Of a stretch of DNA of 39,729 bases, positions 16,694 through 21,635 are shown piece after piece. Where the stretch lies: contig JAFGEO010000083.1 in the NCBI GenBank assembly GCA_016931575.1, positions 1 through 39,729 on the forward strand, written 5' to 3'. Both the position numbers and the translations under genes were made by a program. Below the pieces are notes generated by a model. That model ran no database searches. It saw only the letters and a program-made list of their open reading frames with translations, and had not been told where the DNA came from. The stretch comes from Bacteroidales bacterium (GTDB lineage: Bacteria; Bacteroidota; Bacteroidia; Bacteroidales; UBA10428). Each line of letters opens with the position of its first letter. Positions within the stretch are counted from its first letter, which is position 1.

Positions 16694-17689
16694 TTATTCC
16701 CGGATTCTCCTGACTGTGAGTTGTTCCAGCATCATTAGATCTGCCAGCACAAGGGCTGTGGCAGCTTCAACGATCACAGGGGCCCTCAGAGCTACGCAAA
16801 GATCATGACGTCCATCCACCTTCAGGGTTTCAACTTTTCCGGTCTTTACATTCAGGGTCTGTTGATCCAGGCTTATGCTGGAGGTGGGTTTTATGGCAAG
16901 GCGGAACACCAGCTCGTTACCGTTGCTGATCCCGCCATTTATACCTCCGGCATGGTTGGTCCCGGTTTTTCCATCCATTGACAGGATGTTATCATTGTGT
17001 TCGCTGCCTTTCATTTTTGCTGCCCCGAACCCGGAACCAAACTCGATGCCCTTCACTGCCGGGATAGCAAACATCATATGTGCCAGGAGCGATTCCATCG
17101 AATCGAAAAAGGGTTCTCCCAATCCAATAGGCAATCCCTGGGCCCGGCATTCAATGATTCCCCCGATGGAGTTTTGTTCTTCCATGGCTTTGTCGATGGC
17201 CGCATCGATATCCGGATTTCCGCCTGCTTCTGTCAGCTTTGCTTCAATATGCACCGGACTGATGAGTTTCTTTGCGATAACTCCCGCGGCAACGATCCCG
17301 GTGGTTAACCTGGCAGAAAAATGACCGCCACCCCGGTAATCCTCGTAACCCGCATACTTTTTTGAAGCAACAAAATCGGCATGCCCGGGTCGGGGCATTT
17401 CCCTCAGCTTATCATAGTCCTTCGACCGCACATTGGTGTTCTCAAAGAGAATGGTCAACGGAGCGCCGGTGGCGCGTTCATTGAACACTCCGGTAAGCAG
17501 CTTTGGTAGGTCGGCTTCCTTCCGGGGTGTGGTACCTTTGGCACCGGCCCTTCGACGTCCCAGGTCTTCGGCAAAATCCATGAATGTCACCGGCAGACCT
17601 GCAGGGACGCCATCCAGGGTGATGCCGACACCCTGGCCGTGTGATTCTCCGAAAATATGTATGCGAAATATTCTTCCAAAACTGTTCAT
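16694..17689 (-). CDS. aroC: Chorismate synthase
   Basis: Converts EPSP to chorismate with reduced FMN. The conserved blocks are FGESHGQGVGITLDG at the N-terminus, GRRRAGAKGTTPRKE, RPGHADFVASKKYAG, YRGGGHFSARLT, AGGINGGISNG and the C-terminal GRHDLC. The 331 residues are somewhat shorter than the common 350-390, but none of these motifs is missing. It is the last gene of the aromatic operon, 11 nt after aroD, and it ends before the bidirectional hairpin at 16605. Confidence 0.96.
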   Translation of the reverse strand: MNSFGRIFRIHIFGESHGQGVGITLDGVPAGLPVTFMDFAEDLGRRRAGAKGTTPRKEADLPKLLTGVFNERATGAPLTILFENTNVRSKDYDKLREMPRPGHADFVASKKYAGYEDYRGGGHFSARLTTGIVAAGVIAKKLISPVHIEAKLTEAGGNPDIDAAIDKAMEEQNSIGGIIECRAQGLPIGLGEPFFDSMESLLAHMMFAIPAVKGIEFGSGFGAAKMKGSEHNDNILSMDGKTGTNHAGGINGGISNGNELVFRLAIKPTSSISLDQQTLNVKTGKVETLKVDGRHDLCVALRAPVIVEAATALVLADLMMLEQLTVRRIRE

Positions 17690-17700
17690 GCCAATTCGAT

Positions 17701-18354
17701 TTATTCAGCTTGTTGCAGCTCGCGCTGAAGGTTTTCAATAATGGATTTCATTTGTGAGTAGGGGATCTGACCCGGAGCCGTGATCTTGCCGTCATCCATT
17801 CCGGCAAAACTGAATTCAGCCCCCAGAAAAGGAGCCATGATCCGTGTAATCTTGCCGGTTTCGCCCATACCCAGGATAACCAGGGGCTTATCAGAGGCGT
17901 AGAGGGATAGCAAACGTGCATTGTCACTCCTGTGATTCACCCGGGTGGCAAGCTTTGCAATGTCGGCACCCAGCGAAAAGCACTCCTCAATGATCATGTT
18001 CAGATCTTCACTGGAAGGAGTTTCCGAATAGTTATGGTAAGAGACGATGAGTTTGCATCCTGCTTTTTTTGCTGCGGCGCCAATGCGGTCAATCTGCTGC
18101 CTTCCGGCCTCTATTTCCACATCAACATAGGCAGCACCGCTTTCGATAGCTGCTACCAGCAGCTGATACTGGATTTCGGCATCCAGATTATCGGCCCGGC
18201 AGGTGGCTACGGTGGGGGTGGAGTGAGAACAGACTTTACGAACCTGTTCTTCATCGAAACCGGTCAGGTCGATCCGGATCTCTGCCAGTTCCACCTGCTC
18301 AAGGATCCTGAGGCAAACCTCCGGGTTTTTATCAGCTATCGCTACGCAGATCAT
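17701..18354 (-). CDS. aroD: Type I 3-dehydroquinate dehydratase
   Basis: Dehydrates 3-dehydroquinate to 3-dehydroshikimate through a Schiff base. The 217-residue TIM barrel has the catalytic His107 in SYHNYSETP and the imine-forming Lys134 in ADIAKLAT; the substrate-binding ETGKITR and EFSFAGMDDGKITAPGQ regions are also present. It is a class I enzyme, whereas many Bacteroidota have the unrelated class II form. It overlaps the end of aroB by 23 nt and precedes aroC by 11 nt, so translation is probably coupled across the three genes. Confidence 0.95.
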   Translation of the reverse strand: MICVAIADKNPEVCLRILEQVELAEIRIDLTGFDEEQVRKVCSHSTPTVATCRADNLDAEIQYQLLVAAIESGAAYVDVEIEAGRQQIDRIGAAAKKAGCKLIVSYHNYSETPSSEDLNMIIEECFSLGADIAKLATRVNHRSDNARLLSLYASDKPLVILGMGETGKITRIMAPFLGAEFSFAGMDDGKITAPGQIPYSQMKSIIENLQRELQQAE

Positions 18355-19372
18355 GAATGATATTTTGAAGTTCTGAATAACTGAATTTCCGGGTTACCGC
18401 CTTGCCAATGCTTTCTAAAAGAACAAGGTGAATATCCCGCCCTTCCCGTTTTTTATCCTGCTTCATGGCATTGAAAAGCTCTGAAACTGGGATTTCGGAC
18501 CTAAGGGGCAGACCAAAACGCTGAAGGGTTTTTTTGATGGATTCAACATCTTCTGCACGGATCATTCCCAATTCTCTGGAAACCTGGGCTGCCAGGACCA
18601 TTCCTATTGCGACGGCATGACCATGCAGGGTGCCGTTCATTTTCTCAATGGCATGCGCAAAGGTATGGCCAAAATTCAGCAGCCTGCGTTCACCTTTTTC
18701 CCTCTCGTCGGCTTCGACAACAGCCGCTTTAATCCTGACAGATTCATAGATCATATGGGTCAGGGTAGCAGGATCATACTCCAGCGCTTTGTCTGCATGC
18801 TTCCCACAGTACTCAAAAAGCGCGGCATCCCTGATTGCACCGGCTTTTATTATCTCAGCGAAACCTGACCGGAATTGTTCTTTATCAAGGGTTTTGAACA
18901 AGTTGCTGTCGCACAGCACAAAATCCGGCTGATTGAAAACACCGACCATATTCTTGAATCCTCCGAAGTTTACGCCATTTTTACCTCCCACGCTGGCATC
19001 GACCTGCGAGAGGAGGGTTGTCGAAACGAAACCAAAGGGTATTCCGCGCATATAGACAGACGCGGCAAAGCCACCCACATCACAAACGATACCGCCACCA
19101 ATGGCTAGCAGGAAAGTACTTCGGTCTGCTTCATATTCCACCAGCTTACCCATTATCAACTCAAGGGTGGAAAGGGTTTTGTTTTTTTCACCCAGGCCAA
19201 TTTCAATTATGGGAATACCGGCAGGCAACTGGTCACGGTAATGTTTCAGGATATTGGAATCGGTGAGGATGATGGTTTGCCTCCCTTCAAGGTATTCAGG
19301 CAGGTTCTTCAGTGCTTCACCGATCAGGATGCGCGAGGGTTTCGACTCGGCATTGACATTGAGGATCTTCAT
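18332..19372 (-). CDS. aroB: 3-dehydroquinate synthase
   Basis: NAD- and metal-dependent cyclisation of DAHP to 3-dehydroquinate. The 346 residues carry the NAD-binding IGGGIVCDVGGFAAS, the substrate loop STTLLSQVDASVGGKNGVN, and metal ligands in FAEIIKAG, NFGHTFAHAIE and HGHAVAIGM. It lies 43 nt downstream of the DAHP synthase gene and overlaps aroD, so consecutive steps one to three of the shikimate pathway are encoded in order. EPSP synthase, shikimate kinase and shikimate dehydrogenase are not in this window. Confidence 0.96.
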   Translation of the reverse strand: MKILNVNAESKPSRILIGEALKNLPEYLEGRQTIILTDSNILKHYRDQLPAGIPIIEIGLGEKNKTLSTLELIMGKLVEYEADRSTFLLAIGGGIVCDVGGFAASVYMRGIPFGFVSTTLLSQVDASVGGKNGVNFGGFKNMVGVFNQPDFVLCDSNLFKTLDKEQFRSGFAEIIKAGAIRDAALFEYCGKHADKALEYDPATLTHMIYESVRIKAAVVEADEREKGERRLLNFGHTFAHAIEKMNGTLHGHAVAIGMVLAAQVSRELGMIRAEDVESIKKTLQRFGLPLRSEIPVSELFNAMKQDKKREGRDIHLVLLESIGKAVTRKFSYSELQNIIHDLRSDS

Positions 19373-19415: not shown

Positions 19416-20501
19416 CTATTCATTCATGATTTTGGTCTGGTGGTTAATTGATTCCTGGTGTATGGCCCGAAACACTTTCACTACAAAGTCCTCGCTCAGG
19501 CCTTTCTTCTCCCCATCCATAATTCGTTTGGTAAGAAGCTGGTCCCAGCGGCTCGACTGCAGGATGGTAATATCATTCTCCTTCTTATAGGCTCCGATCT
19601 TGTCAGCTACTTTCATTCGCTTCCCAAGCACTTCCAGAAGTTTGTCATCAAAAGTATCGATCTGCTGCCTCAGGTCTTCCAGGGTGTGCGAGATAACGGT
19701 ATTATCGACATTGGCTTTACGCAAAACCAGTGAACTTAGGAGCTTTTTAAGGGATTCCGGCGTAATCTGCTGGGAAGCATCACTCAGGGCTTTGTCAGGG
19801 TTGCAATGCGTTTCAATGATCAGCCCTTCGAAGTACAGGTCCATGGCTTCCTGGGATACTTCAAACAGCATGTCACGGTTTCCGCAGATATGACTGGGAT
19901 CCGTGATCATCGGCAGATTCGGAATACGCCTTTTGAGTTCGATCGGGATCTGCCAGTGAGGATCGTTGCGGTAGAAGGTTTTTCCATAGGTGGAGAACCC
20001 GCGGTGAATGGCTGCAAGTTTCTTTATTCCGGCCTGATTAAGCCTTTCGAATGCCCCGATCCAGAGTTCGACATCCGGATTCACAGGATTTTTCACCATA
20101 ACAGGGATATCTACACCGTTCAGGGCATCGGCTATCTCCTGCACCGCAAATGGATTTGCAGAGGTGCGGGCACCAATCCAGAGAATGTCTACTCCAAACT
20201 TAAGACATTCGAACACATGGTTAACATTGGCCACCTCGGTTGCGGTGAGCATGCCCAATTCCTCTTTTACTTTCTTCAGCCAGTGCAGGCCATCCTTACC
20301 CACCCCCTCGAAAGTATTGGGACGGGTACGAGGTTTCCATATGCCGGCCCGAAAAAGGGAAATGCCCCGTTCTTTCAATTGCCGGGCTGTTTCCATAACC
20401 TGCTCTTCGGATTCGGCGCTGCAGGGGCCAGCCAGGACCAGGGGGCGCTCTTTTGAGACTCCTTCGAATACAAAGGGCTCCAGTTCAAGTTGTATACTCA
20501 T
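19416..20501 (-). CDS. DAHP synthase / chorismate mutase fusion
   Basis: A two-domain enzyme of 361 residues. The N-terminal type I-beta DAHP synthase (about 5-260) has the metal-binding Cys27 in GPCSAES, GIWKPRTRPNTFEG, and DPSHICGNR. The C-terminal AroQ-type chorismate mutase (about 274-361) begins LEDLRQQIDTFDDKLLEVLG. The fusion joins the first step of the shikimate pathway to the first step after chorismate, and the mutase domain may let prephenate feed back on DAHP synthesis. The ATG at 20501 is chosen over a TTG two codons upstream. It follows pheA by 102 nt, with a hairpin between them. Confidence 0.94.
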   Translation of the reverse strand: MSIQLELEPFVFEGVSKERPLVLAGPCSAESEEQVMETARQLKERGISLFRAGIWKPRTRPNTFEGVGKDGLHWLKKVKEELGMLTATEVANVNHVFECLKFGVDILWIGARTSANPFAVQEIADALNGVDIPVMVKNPVNPDVELWIGAFERLNQAGIKKLAAIHRGFSTYGKTFYRNDPHWQIPIELKRRIPNLPMITDPSHICGNRDMLFEVSQEAMDLYFEGLIIETHCNPDKALSDASQQITPESLKKLLSSLVLRKANVDNTVISHTLEDLRQQIDTFDDKLLEVLGKRMKVADKIGAYKKENDITILQSSRWDQLLTKRIMDGEKKGLSEDFVVKVFRAIHQESINHQTKIMNE

Positions 20502-20540
20502 GATCAATTTTTTAGTTATTCTGCTAAGATGTTTTCCGGC

Positions 20541-20565
20541 AGCGTGTTTTTCCGGGTAACACGCT
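20541..20565. repeat. Intercistronic hairpin pheA/DAHP synthase
   Basis: AGCGTGTT and AACACGCT pair as a perfect 8-bp stem around a 9-nt loop. No U-tract follows on the minus strand, so transcription probably continues. It could be an RNA-processing or stability site that sets different levels of pheA and the downstream aro genes. Confidence 0.5.
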
Positions 20566-20603
20566 AATCAGGACAAGGTTCTCTTCTTAAAATTCCATTT
20601 TAG

Positions 20604-21464
20604 TTATTCCACATATACATTTCCCTTTGTGTATTCACCAAGGATGCACACATTACTCGTAAAGGGTTCGATGGCTTTGACGGACTGCCGGTACCTGTCA
20701 TAATTATCAAATTCCAGGTCGACATAAAACTGGTACTCCCAGTCACGGCCTATAATAGGCATCGACTGGATCTTTGAAAGGTTAATCCCGTAAAAGGTTA
20801 GGATTGACAGTACTTTCGAAAGGCAGCCTATCTCATGGGCAAGGGCAAAGCTCACGGACGATTTCAAAGCATCCGCATTCTCATAGCCTTTACCGTTTTT
20901 ATCTTCCAGGATCAGGAACCGCGTATAGTTGTTCTTATTAGTCTCGATGCTTGCGGCAAGGGTATCCAGGCCGTATTTTGCAGCAGCCAGGGTGCTGGCT
21001 ATGGCACCGGTACCGGTGAGCTGTTTGTCAGCAATTTCTTTCGCACTTAGAGCCGTATCAATGCTGTCAATGAGTTTAATCTCCGGATAATCTTCAAAGT
21101 ATTTCTGGCATTGGAGCAGGGCCATCGGATGTGAGTAAACCTCCCTGATATCTGATATTTTCTGACCAGGTAGGGCTACAAGGTTTTGTCTGATCCTTAA
21201 ATACACCTCACCAATGATCTTCATGTTAGACTCCAGCAACAGGGTATAGTTTGGAAGGATGCTCCCGGCGAGGGAATTTTCTATTGCCGTTATTCCATAA
21301 TCCACTTTGCCCGCTTTCAGGGCCGCAAACAGGTCCTTAAAAGTGTTCCTTGGGACAATTTCGATGTTCTCATCGCTAAAATAACGCATGGCAGCAATTT
21401 CATGGAAGGCTCCATAACCGCCCTGAATGGCTATGCGTTTTACTTTTTCTTTGGACGTGCTCAT
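20604..21464 (-). CDS. pheA: Prephenate dehydratase
   Basis: Converts prephenate to phenylpyruvate, the committed step to phenylalanine. With the ATG at 21464 the protein has 286 residues. The catalytic domain (about 8-185) shows GGYGAFHE, AIENSLAGS and NNYTRFLIL with the Thr-Arg-Phe signature. The C-terminal ACT domain (about 197-270, KSSVSFALAHEIGCL and LSKIQSMPI) should give feedback inhibition by Phe. There is no fused chorismate mutase; that activity lies in the next gene. ATG 21485 is less likely because it touches the U-tract of the upstream attenuator, leaving no room for ribosome binding in a read-through mRNA. It is the first gene of the operon. Confidence 0.95.
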   Translation of the reverse strand: MSTSKEKVKRIAIQGGYGAFHEIAAMRYFSDENIEIVPRNTFKDLFAALKAGKVDYGITAIENSLAGSILPNYTLLLESNMKIIGEVYLRIRQNLVALPGQKISDIREVYSHPMALLQCQKYFEDYPEIKLIDSIDTALSAKEIADKQLTGTGAIASTLAAAKYGLDTLAASIETNKNNYTRFLILEDKNGKGYENADALKSSVSFALAHEIGCLSKVLSILTFYGINLSKIQSMPIIGRDWEYQFYVDLEFDNYDRYRQSVKAIEPFTSNVCILGEYTKGNVYVE

Positions 21465-21486: not shown

Positions 21487-21515
21487 AAAAAAAAAGTCCC
21501 GGCTTAGCGGGACTT
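21487..21515 (-). terminator. Attenuator terminator of the pheA operon
   Basis: On the minus strand AAGTCCCG (21508-21515) and CGGGACTT (21494-21501) form a perfect 8-bp stem around CTAAGC, and nine T follow (21487-21495). It lies between the Phe-rich leader peptide and pheA, so it stops transcription before the structural genes. Its 5' arm AGUCCC can instead pair with GGGGCU at 21545-21550, part of segment 2 of the leader, which would dissolve the terminator. Confidence 0.9.
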
Positions 21516-21551
21516 CTCTGTATATTTTTCATATCCATACTAATAGCCCCT

Positions 21552-21608
21552 TCAGCGCAATTTGCTAAAGTAAAAATAGAAGAAGCTAAAAGTGTTGTTT
21601 GTTCTCAT
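21552..21608 (-). CDS. pheL: Phenylalanine leader peptide
   Basis: An 18-codon ORF, MRTNNTFSFFYFYFSKLR, with five Phe and two Tyr within eight residues (7-14). It begins about 20 nt after a TAnnTTTG promoter element and ends just before the pheA attenuator. Its codons 8-10 (AGCTTCTTC, 21579-21587) pair over 9 bp with two G-U pairs to GAAGGGGCT (21545-21553), which overlaps the stop codon. Ribosome stalling at Phe codons would mask the first segment and free the second to form the antiterminator. The symbol is given by analogy with enteric pheL; the peptide sequence itself is not homologous. Confidence 0.85.
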   Translation of the reverse strand: MRTNNTFSFFYFYFSKLR

Positions 21609-21627
21609 ATCTACGCTTATGATGATG

Positions 21628-21635
21628 CAAATATA
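21628..21635 (-). promoter_or_regulatory. Putative -7 element of the pheA operon
   Basis: The minus strand reads TATATTTG, fitting TAnnTTTG, 19 nt before the leader-peptide ATG and 43 nt after the ABC-F stop codon. No convincing -33 TTTG is found. Its position would give a short untranslated lead to the attenuator peptide. Confidence 0.6.

Follow-up and report, generated by a model that had tools for sequence, protein, structure and literature searches.

The question raised by this locus is whether the short reading frame on the minus strand ahead of pheA is the leader peptide of a transcription attenuator and, if so, which amino acids are sensed by it. The window is the whole 39,729-nt stretch of DNA from a Bacteroidales bacterium that was analysed (contig JAFGEO010000083.1). 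The first-pass annotation had proposed a complete four-segment attenuator at this position, and all of its coordinates proved correct when the minus strand was read again (Table 1). The TAnnTTTG box and the 18-codon ORF with FSFFYFYF are present as described. Segments 1 and 2 can pair over 9 bp, two of which are G-U, and a 6-bp helix with one G-U is possible between GGGGCU of segment 2 (21550-21545) and AGUCCC of segment 3 (21514-21509). The segment 3:segment 4 stem is 8 bp long and is followed by nine U; by sequence and fold, the intrinsic terminator between the leader ORF and pheA spans 21515-21487, and the pheA ATG at 21464 lies 22 nt past the U tract. For the leader of 141 nt the folding z is -2.51, and 2 of 200 shuffled sequences fold equally well. 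A simple terminator scan reported nothing on the minus strand, the leader terminator included, probably because the stem count of the scan extends into the U tract and too few T are left.

Table 1. Leader elements and downstream genes of the pheA operon, in window coordinates.
Feature	Position	Strand	Basis
Promoter -7 box TATATTTG (TAnnTTTG, Bacteroidota sigma-A type)	21628..21635	(-)	sequence; exact-box counts upstream of pheA
Leader ORF, 18 codons, MRTNNTFSFFYFYFSKLR	21552..21608, stop UGA 21554-21552 included	(-)	sequence; conserved upstream of pheA
Control codons FSFFYFYF (5 Phe, 2 Tyr)	21567..21590	(-)	sequence
Segment 1 AGCUUCUUC, partner of segment 2	21579..21587	(-)	sequence; fold; own-versus-swapped pairing
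Segment 2 GAAGGGGCU	21545..21553, overlaps UGA 21554-21552	(-)	sequence; 2:3 own-versus-swapped pairing
Segment 3 AAGUCCCG, common to antiterminator and terminator	21508..21515	(-)	sequence; fold
Segment 4 CGGGACUU, closes terminator	21494..21501	(-)	sequence; fold
U9 tract of intrinsic terminator	21487..21495	(-)	sequence; two U also in stem
pheA, prephenate dehydratase, first structural gene	20604..21464	(-)	PF00800
DAHP synthase fused to chorismate mutase	19416..20507	(-)	PF00793 + PF01817
aroB, 3-dehydroquinate synthase	18332..19372	(-)	PF01761 + PF24621
aroD, type I 3-dehydroquinase	17701..18354	(-)	PF01487
aroC, chorismate synthase	16694..17689	(-)	PF01264

It is highly probable that this element is a ribosome-mediated transcription attenuator, in which a translated leader peptide controls the pheA aromatic operon, and the reading is carried by the anatomy, the conservation, the partner-specific complementarity of the segments and their spacing. 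As predicted from the sequence, RNA polymerase would start near 21620 and a ribosome would translate the 18-codon leader. Under a shortage of Phe-tRNA or Tyr-tRNA, the ribosome would stall in the FSFFYFYF run and cover segment 1, segment 2 would then pair with segment 3, and the operon would be transcribed in the absence of a terminator. When the supply is good, the ribosome would reach the stop codon and cover segment 2, segments 3 and 4 would form the U9 terminator, and transcription would end near 21487. A stalled ribosome was modelled by setting its edge 12 nt beyond the first nucleotide of each of the seven Phe/Tyr control codons in turn, and at every position 6/6 bp of the 2:3 helix form in the RNA of this leader that stops short of segment 4. 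Once the RNA is complete, the terminator prevails (8/8 bp) in the minimum-energy fold at all of these ribosome positions, so antitermination must be kinetic and depend on the folding order during transcription. When the RNA stops short of segment 4 and carries no ribosome, its minimum-energy fold has 5/6 bp of 2:3 and 0/9 bp of 1:2, although the 1:2 hairpin, taken by itself, is the more stable of the two (-15.5 vs -10.9).

Conservation was studied in the regions upstream of pheA in relatives. PheA matches came from 9/9 genomes of the genus, 22/23 of the family, 63/148 of an order sample and 215/247 of a phylum sample, of which the best 30 of the 215 matches were taken into the main set and a further 60 were viewed; an additional 25 loci lie on named genome contigs. 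The 137 loci with a PheA match were reduced by 11 with an identical gene start to 126, the window's own counted. A leader unit was called when an ORF of 8-45 aa contained a stretch of eight residues with five or more Phe/Tyr and a stem-loop with a U tract lay no more than 130 nt behind it. Such a unit is found at 109/126 loci, or 109/123 when restricted to loci with at least 200 nt upstream of pheA, and the same caller was positive for 4/630 dinucleotide shuffles and 2/126 reverse complements. The comparison of pheA upstream regions that the first-pass annotation had suggested therefore favors a kept Phe/Tyr-rich ORF with a terminator, and its presence upstream of pheA is, by these sequence controls, not due to chance. 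Among the 17 loci missed by the caller, three have less than 20 nt upstream and seven have a unit by a looser rule, which is also positive in 23/126 reverse complements and was given no weight. Ten of the 126 loci have no unit even by the looser rule, three of them being almost without upstream sequence; L030, L049, L077, L088, L104 and L109 appear to be without a leader unit. At L027, which was missed with 212 nt upstream, a leader with a poor tail is apparently present by eye. When 21 leaders from the family were aligned with MAFFT, the invariant columns fell at the start of the ORF, in the Phe/Tyr run, in segment 2 and in the terminator.

The joint occurrence of ORF and terminator bears on a different role for the peptide, in which it would act on pheA by translational coupling or reinitiation and not by termination. 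Short leader ORFs have been put forward as sites of reinitiation, and the peak given for Bacteroidetes is at 11-14 bp (PMC4833913). Here the leader stop and the pheA ATG are separated by 87 nt that include the terminator, and ORF and terminator are found together at the 109 of 126 loci. Coupling or reinitiation onto pheA is therefore extremely improbable.

The attenuator reading further predicts that segment 2 fits the partners of its own locus. The mean duplex energy of segments 2:3 over 109 loci is -7.99 kcal/mol for own partners and -6.13 kcal/mol for swapped partners, and for segments 1:2 the values are -12.66 and -9.47 kcal/mol, determined in windows fixed around the stop codon so that loci with segment 2 inside the ORF score poorly. 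For both pairings 0/1000 permutations were as good, a count that is not a probability since the loci are related and the permutations are not independent samples. Chance would give the own partner a mean rank of 0.5 of the field; the mean ranks seen are 0.30 for 2:3 and 0.36 for 1:2, and the advantage of the own partner is clear when summed over loci and moderate at each locus. A simple helix finder pairs segment 2 with its own segment 3 over 7 or more bp at 81/109 loci, compared to a mean of 36.1 (maximum 49) with swapped partners and 10.1 with shuffled sequences. Segments 2, 3 and 4 vary jointly between loci, for example GGGGCT/AGTCCC/GGGACT, GTCGGG/CCCGGC/GTCGGG and GAGCAGGA/TCCTGCTC/GAGCAGGA. 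The covarying stems that the first-pass annotation had pointed to as a check are thus found, and the mutually exclusive 1:2/3:4 and 2:3 pairings are kept through the joint change. Own-versus-swapped pairing was used for this purpose in place of column counts because the alignment of the 21 family leaders misplaced the stems. The inner extension of the antiterminator is weak, with a mean z of -0.67 over the 109 loci.

The distance between the control codons and segment 2 is narrow. From the last Phe/Tyr codon of the run to the start of segment 2 the median is 14 nt, and the distance is 7-23 nt at 106/109 loci, with segment 2 misplaced upstream in the other three. When the helix finder was started at the end of the run, segment 2 lies at 7-25 nt in 108/109 loci, and shuffled sequences gave quartiles of 7, 17 and 28. 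The spacing is about that expected for the edge of a ribosome, so that one stalled in the run would leave segment 2 free and one at the stop codon would mask it. The promoter is conserved as well. The TAnnTTTG consensus is that given in PMC9723704, and an exact box is located 8-60 nt before the first leader ATG at 76/109 loci, with a median gap of 20 nt, compared to 6/109 shuffled windows; a box with one mismatch discriminates poorly (101/109 vs 60/109 shuffled). Conservation, own-versus-swapped complementarity, ribosome-compatible spacing and the conserved promoter box together uphold the four-segment reading of the first-pass annotation.

These results can be weighed against a terminator that is constitutive or controlled by a protein or ligand, as in a riboswitch, T-box or sRNA, with the ORF present by chance. 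Such a terminator would be in line with the Rfam search, in which no family reached the gathering cut-off in the whole window, T-box and riboswitch families included, and which leaves room for an unknown aptamer; an STnc100 sRNA match over the terminator is weak (25.1 bits, cut-off 47). Such a terminator is countered by the tight spacing of the Phe/Tyr-rich ORF and segment 2 at most loci and by the invariant columns of the 21 family leaders at ORF start, run, segment 2 and terminator, and we regard it as very improbable. The specific T-box, riboswitch and sRNA readings were rejected on the lack of an Rfam match at cut-off and on the conserved ORF and spacing.

A permissive Rfam search returned 18 sub-threshold matches, of which Phe_leader (RF01859) is the sensible one, and in the window it scores 25.1 bits, below its gathering cut-off of 55. 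Phe_leader is over cut-off in 0/148 genomes of the phylum and in 1/14 control genomes, which is taken to be E. coli. At E <= 1 it is found in 135/148 phylum genomes, in some directly upstream of pheA (G313, G255, G233) and in many elsewhere. Rfam-based annotation misses the Bacteroidota pheA leader because the nearest Rfam model falls below its cut-off. The enteric pheL/pheA attenuator modeled by RF01859 is alike in having a Phe-rich leader peptide, four segments and an intrinsic terminator ahead of pheA. In contrast to enteric pheL, the window leader has Tyr codons in the run, a different peptide, and an operon with DAHP synthase and shikimate-pathway genes. Enteric pheL is not known to contain Tyr.

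The genes that would be controlled bear on what is sensed. Pfam assignments agree with the first-pass annotation that the leader heads a five-gene operon including DAHP synthase, the order being pheA, DAHP synthase-chorismate mutase, aroB, aroD and aroC. Operons were viewed in two relatives, where the gene labels come from reading the translations and not from a family search: in L020 the same five genes come first and an apparent prephenate dehydrogenase gene (tyrA) next, and the order in L034 reads pheA, tyrA, DAHP synthase-chorismate mutase. The gap between pheA and the DAHP synthase gene in the window (20508-20603) contains by eye an inverted repeat, AGCGTGTT..AACACGCT, without a U tract, and an inverted repeat is likewise seen by eye in the pheA-DAHP synthase gap of L003.

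The first-pass annotation had described control by Phe codons. The five Phe codons are there, and two Tyr codons are also part of the control run, which thus does not consist of Phe codons alone. In the eight-residue control windows of the 109 loci (872 residues), which were selected for high Phe+Tyr so that both residues are favored in the tally, there are 459 Phe and 294 Tyr; Phe is present in 109/109 and Tyr in 104/109. Residues other than Tyr whose codons lie one step from a Phe codon seldom occur there (S 28, V 3, C 2, L 1 and I 0 of 872). This composition suggests that the attenuator probably senses Tyr as well as Phe, through charged tRNA-Tyr and tRNA-Phe. Joint sensing is the natural reading given the DAHP synthase in the operon and the tyrA-like gene in L020 and L034. 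A sensor of phenylalanine alone, in which the Tyr codons are a neutral fill-in, would fit the excess of Phe over Tyr in the control windows and the position of pheA, a gene of the Phe branch, at the head of the operon. However, a neutral fill-in is difficult to reconcile with Tyr in nearly all of these windows, selected as they are for Phe+Tyr, when the other one-step neighbours are rare, and the pyrimidine-rich segment 1 would favor Phe, Leu or Ser codons over UAY. The DAHP synthase and the tyrA-like genes also count against it, and sensing of phenylalanine alone is considered unlikely.

Two Phe/Tyr leaders in series, each with its own terminator, are located upstream of pheA at 11/109 loci (L019, L024, L026, L028, L033, L051, L052, L091, L098, L102 and L110), the first leader of L019 being the weakest. 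The second start codon is 9-61 nt past the first terminator stem in the 11 tandems, and a segment 2:3 helix of 4-11 bp is found in 22/22 tandem units. An exact promoter box precedes the second leader in 0/11 and a one-mismatch box in two (L024 and L110). Since the second leader has no exact box, one transcript probably carries both units. A division of labor with one leader for Tyr and the other for Phe was considered and rejected, as the compositions do not split cleanly in this manner. On a quick PheA tree the tandem label needs 8 changes, compared to a shuffled mean of 10.6, and 7 are forced by well-supported branches; each change may be a gain or a loss, and its placement is unsure because of several long branches, such as L098 and L102. 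The chances are about even that in Bacteroidia the aromatic operon has long been headed by an attenuator for Phe and Tyr jointly, and that this attenuator was doubled on several separate occasions into a pair of complete, same-signal units carried in series by one transcript, which would act as an AND-type, steeper gate on supply. The tandem forms are a ready-made natural case in which the effect of a second, identical attenuator in series can be tested. The tandem attenuators of Salmonella mgtCBR are similar in that two leader ORFs lie in series on one mRNA (PMC3641672). The mgtCBR leaders answer different signals, ATP and proline, and are termed a singular example of tandem attenuators with different signals (PMC3641672), whereas both tandem leaders here are Phe/Tyr-rich and each has a terminator.

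The spread of the unit was followed beyond the main set. A batch of 20 further loci has the unit in 18, namely 17/19 from the class of the window and L207 from another class. Among 40 further loci, all from other classes of the phylum, the unit is found in 1/40, a comparison that is partly unfair because 8/39 misses have a matched frame of at least 380 aa, so that the 700 nt taken may fall inside the same gene. From these sequences the leader unit looks typical of the class of the window (Bacteroidia) and rare outside it. Units outside the class are those of L155 (G300), L207 (G233), L113 (G181), L125 (G323) and L032 (labelled Ignavibacteria), and they may reflect transfer of the operon or an older origin. 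The PheA proteins of L113, L125 and L207 are nearer to that of the window (46-51% identity) than are other listed members of their own families, a likeness that hints at a joint transfer of operon and leader. In family f121, pheA of L196 and L209 appears to lie closely behind another coding region and has no unit; L201 of the same family differs. Overall, the distribution suggests that across a whole class of Bacteroidota the aromatic operon is as a rule controlled by ribosome-mediated attenuation.

Ribosome-mediated attenuation is best known from Proteobacteria, as the first-pass annotation had noted. Its remark that attenuation is much less described in Bacteroidota has to be amended, as PMC9723704 already describes signs of leader-peptide attenuation in front of amino-acid operons, together with a conserved 5' element ahead of pheA in Flavobacterium psychrophilum. 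This element is likewise structured, located upstream of pheA in a member of the Bacteroidota, and without an Rfam match; its conservation is spoken of for Flavobacteriaceae, whereas the present set spans many families (PMC9723704). A pheA 5' element in Bacteroidota is thus already known (PMC9723704), and what is added here is the breadth of its occurrence, the Tyr content and the tandem doubling in 11 of the 109 loci. The same paper describes flavobacterial mRNAs as being without Shine-Dalgarno sites (PMC9723704), and leader-like short ORFs have been reported in B. thetaiotaomicron (PMC7366714). No description of a class-wide Phe/Tyr leader or of same-signal tandem leaders was recognised among the literature matches listed, and the subscription literature may hold earlier pheA predictions. 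The Bacteroid-trp RNA (RF01692) is a Trp leader attenuator. It is also a proposed cis-regulatory RNA of Bacteroidetes in PMC2864571. Bacteroid-trp has no gathering match in the window and none in the genome of the window at E <= 0.001, though trpE in this genome has a WWW leader.

A second Phe/Tyr leader was not found in this genome with a strict pattern of six Phe/Tyr codons, which would miss interrupted runs. The pattern has 9 matches genome-wide, compared to 24 for a reversed control, and among the 9 only that of the window looks by eye like a leader with a terminator behind it. Three other amino-acid operons of the genome (His, Trp and Ile/Leu/Val) were checked by eye, and all have a leader and an apparent terminator. 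The hisG gene (L139, C161) has a His leader, MVLPDIHTHHHHTARR, with a terminator just before hisG, and an inverted repeat, GACATAC/GTATGTC, is seen by eye in this leader as a possible 1:2 stem. The trpE gene (L221, C160) is preceded by the Trp leader, MNSILFTNWWWLRIRQKP, with its WWW and then a terminator. The ilvD gene (L223, C31) features an Ile/Leu/Val-rich leader, MIQNLLIVVVILVSVLKTLN, that is also followed by a terminator. Together with the Phe/Tyr operon, four of four amino-acid operons viewed in this genome have leader peptides with terminators.
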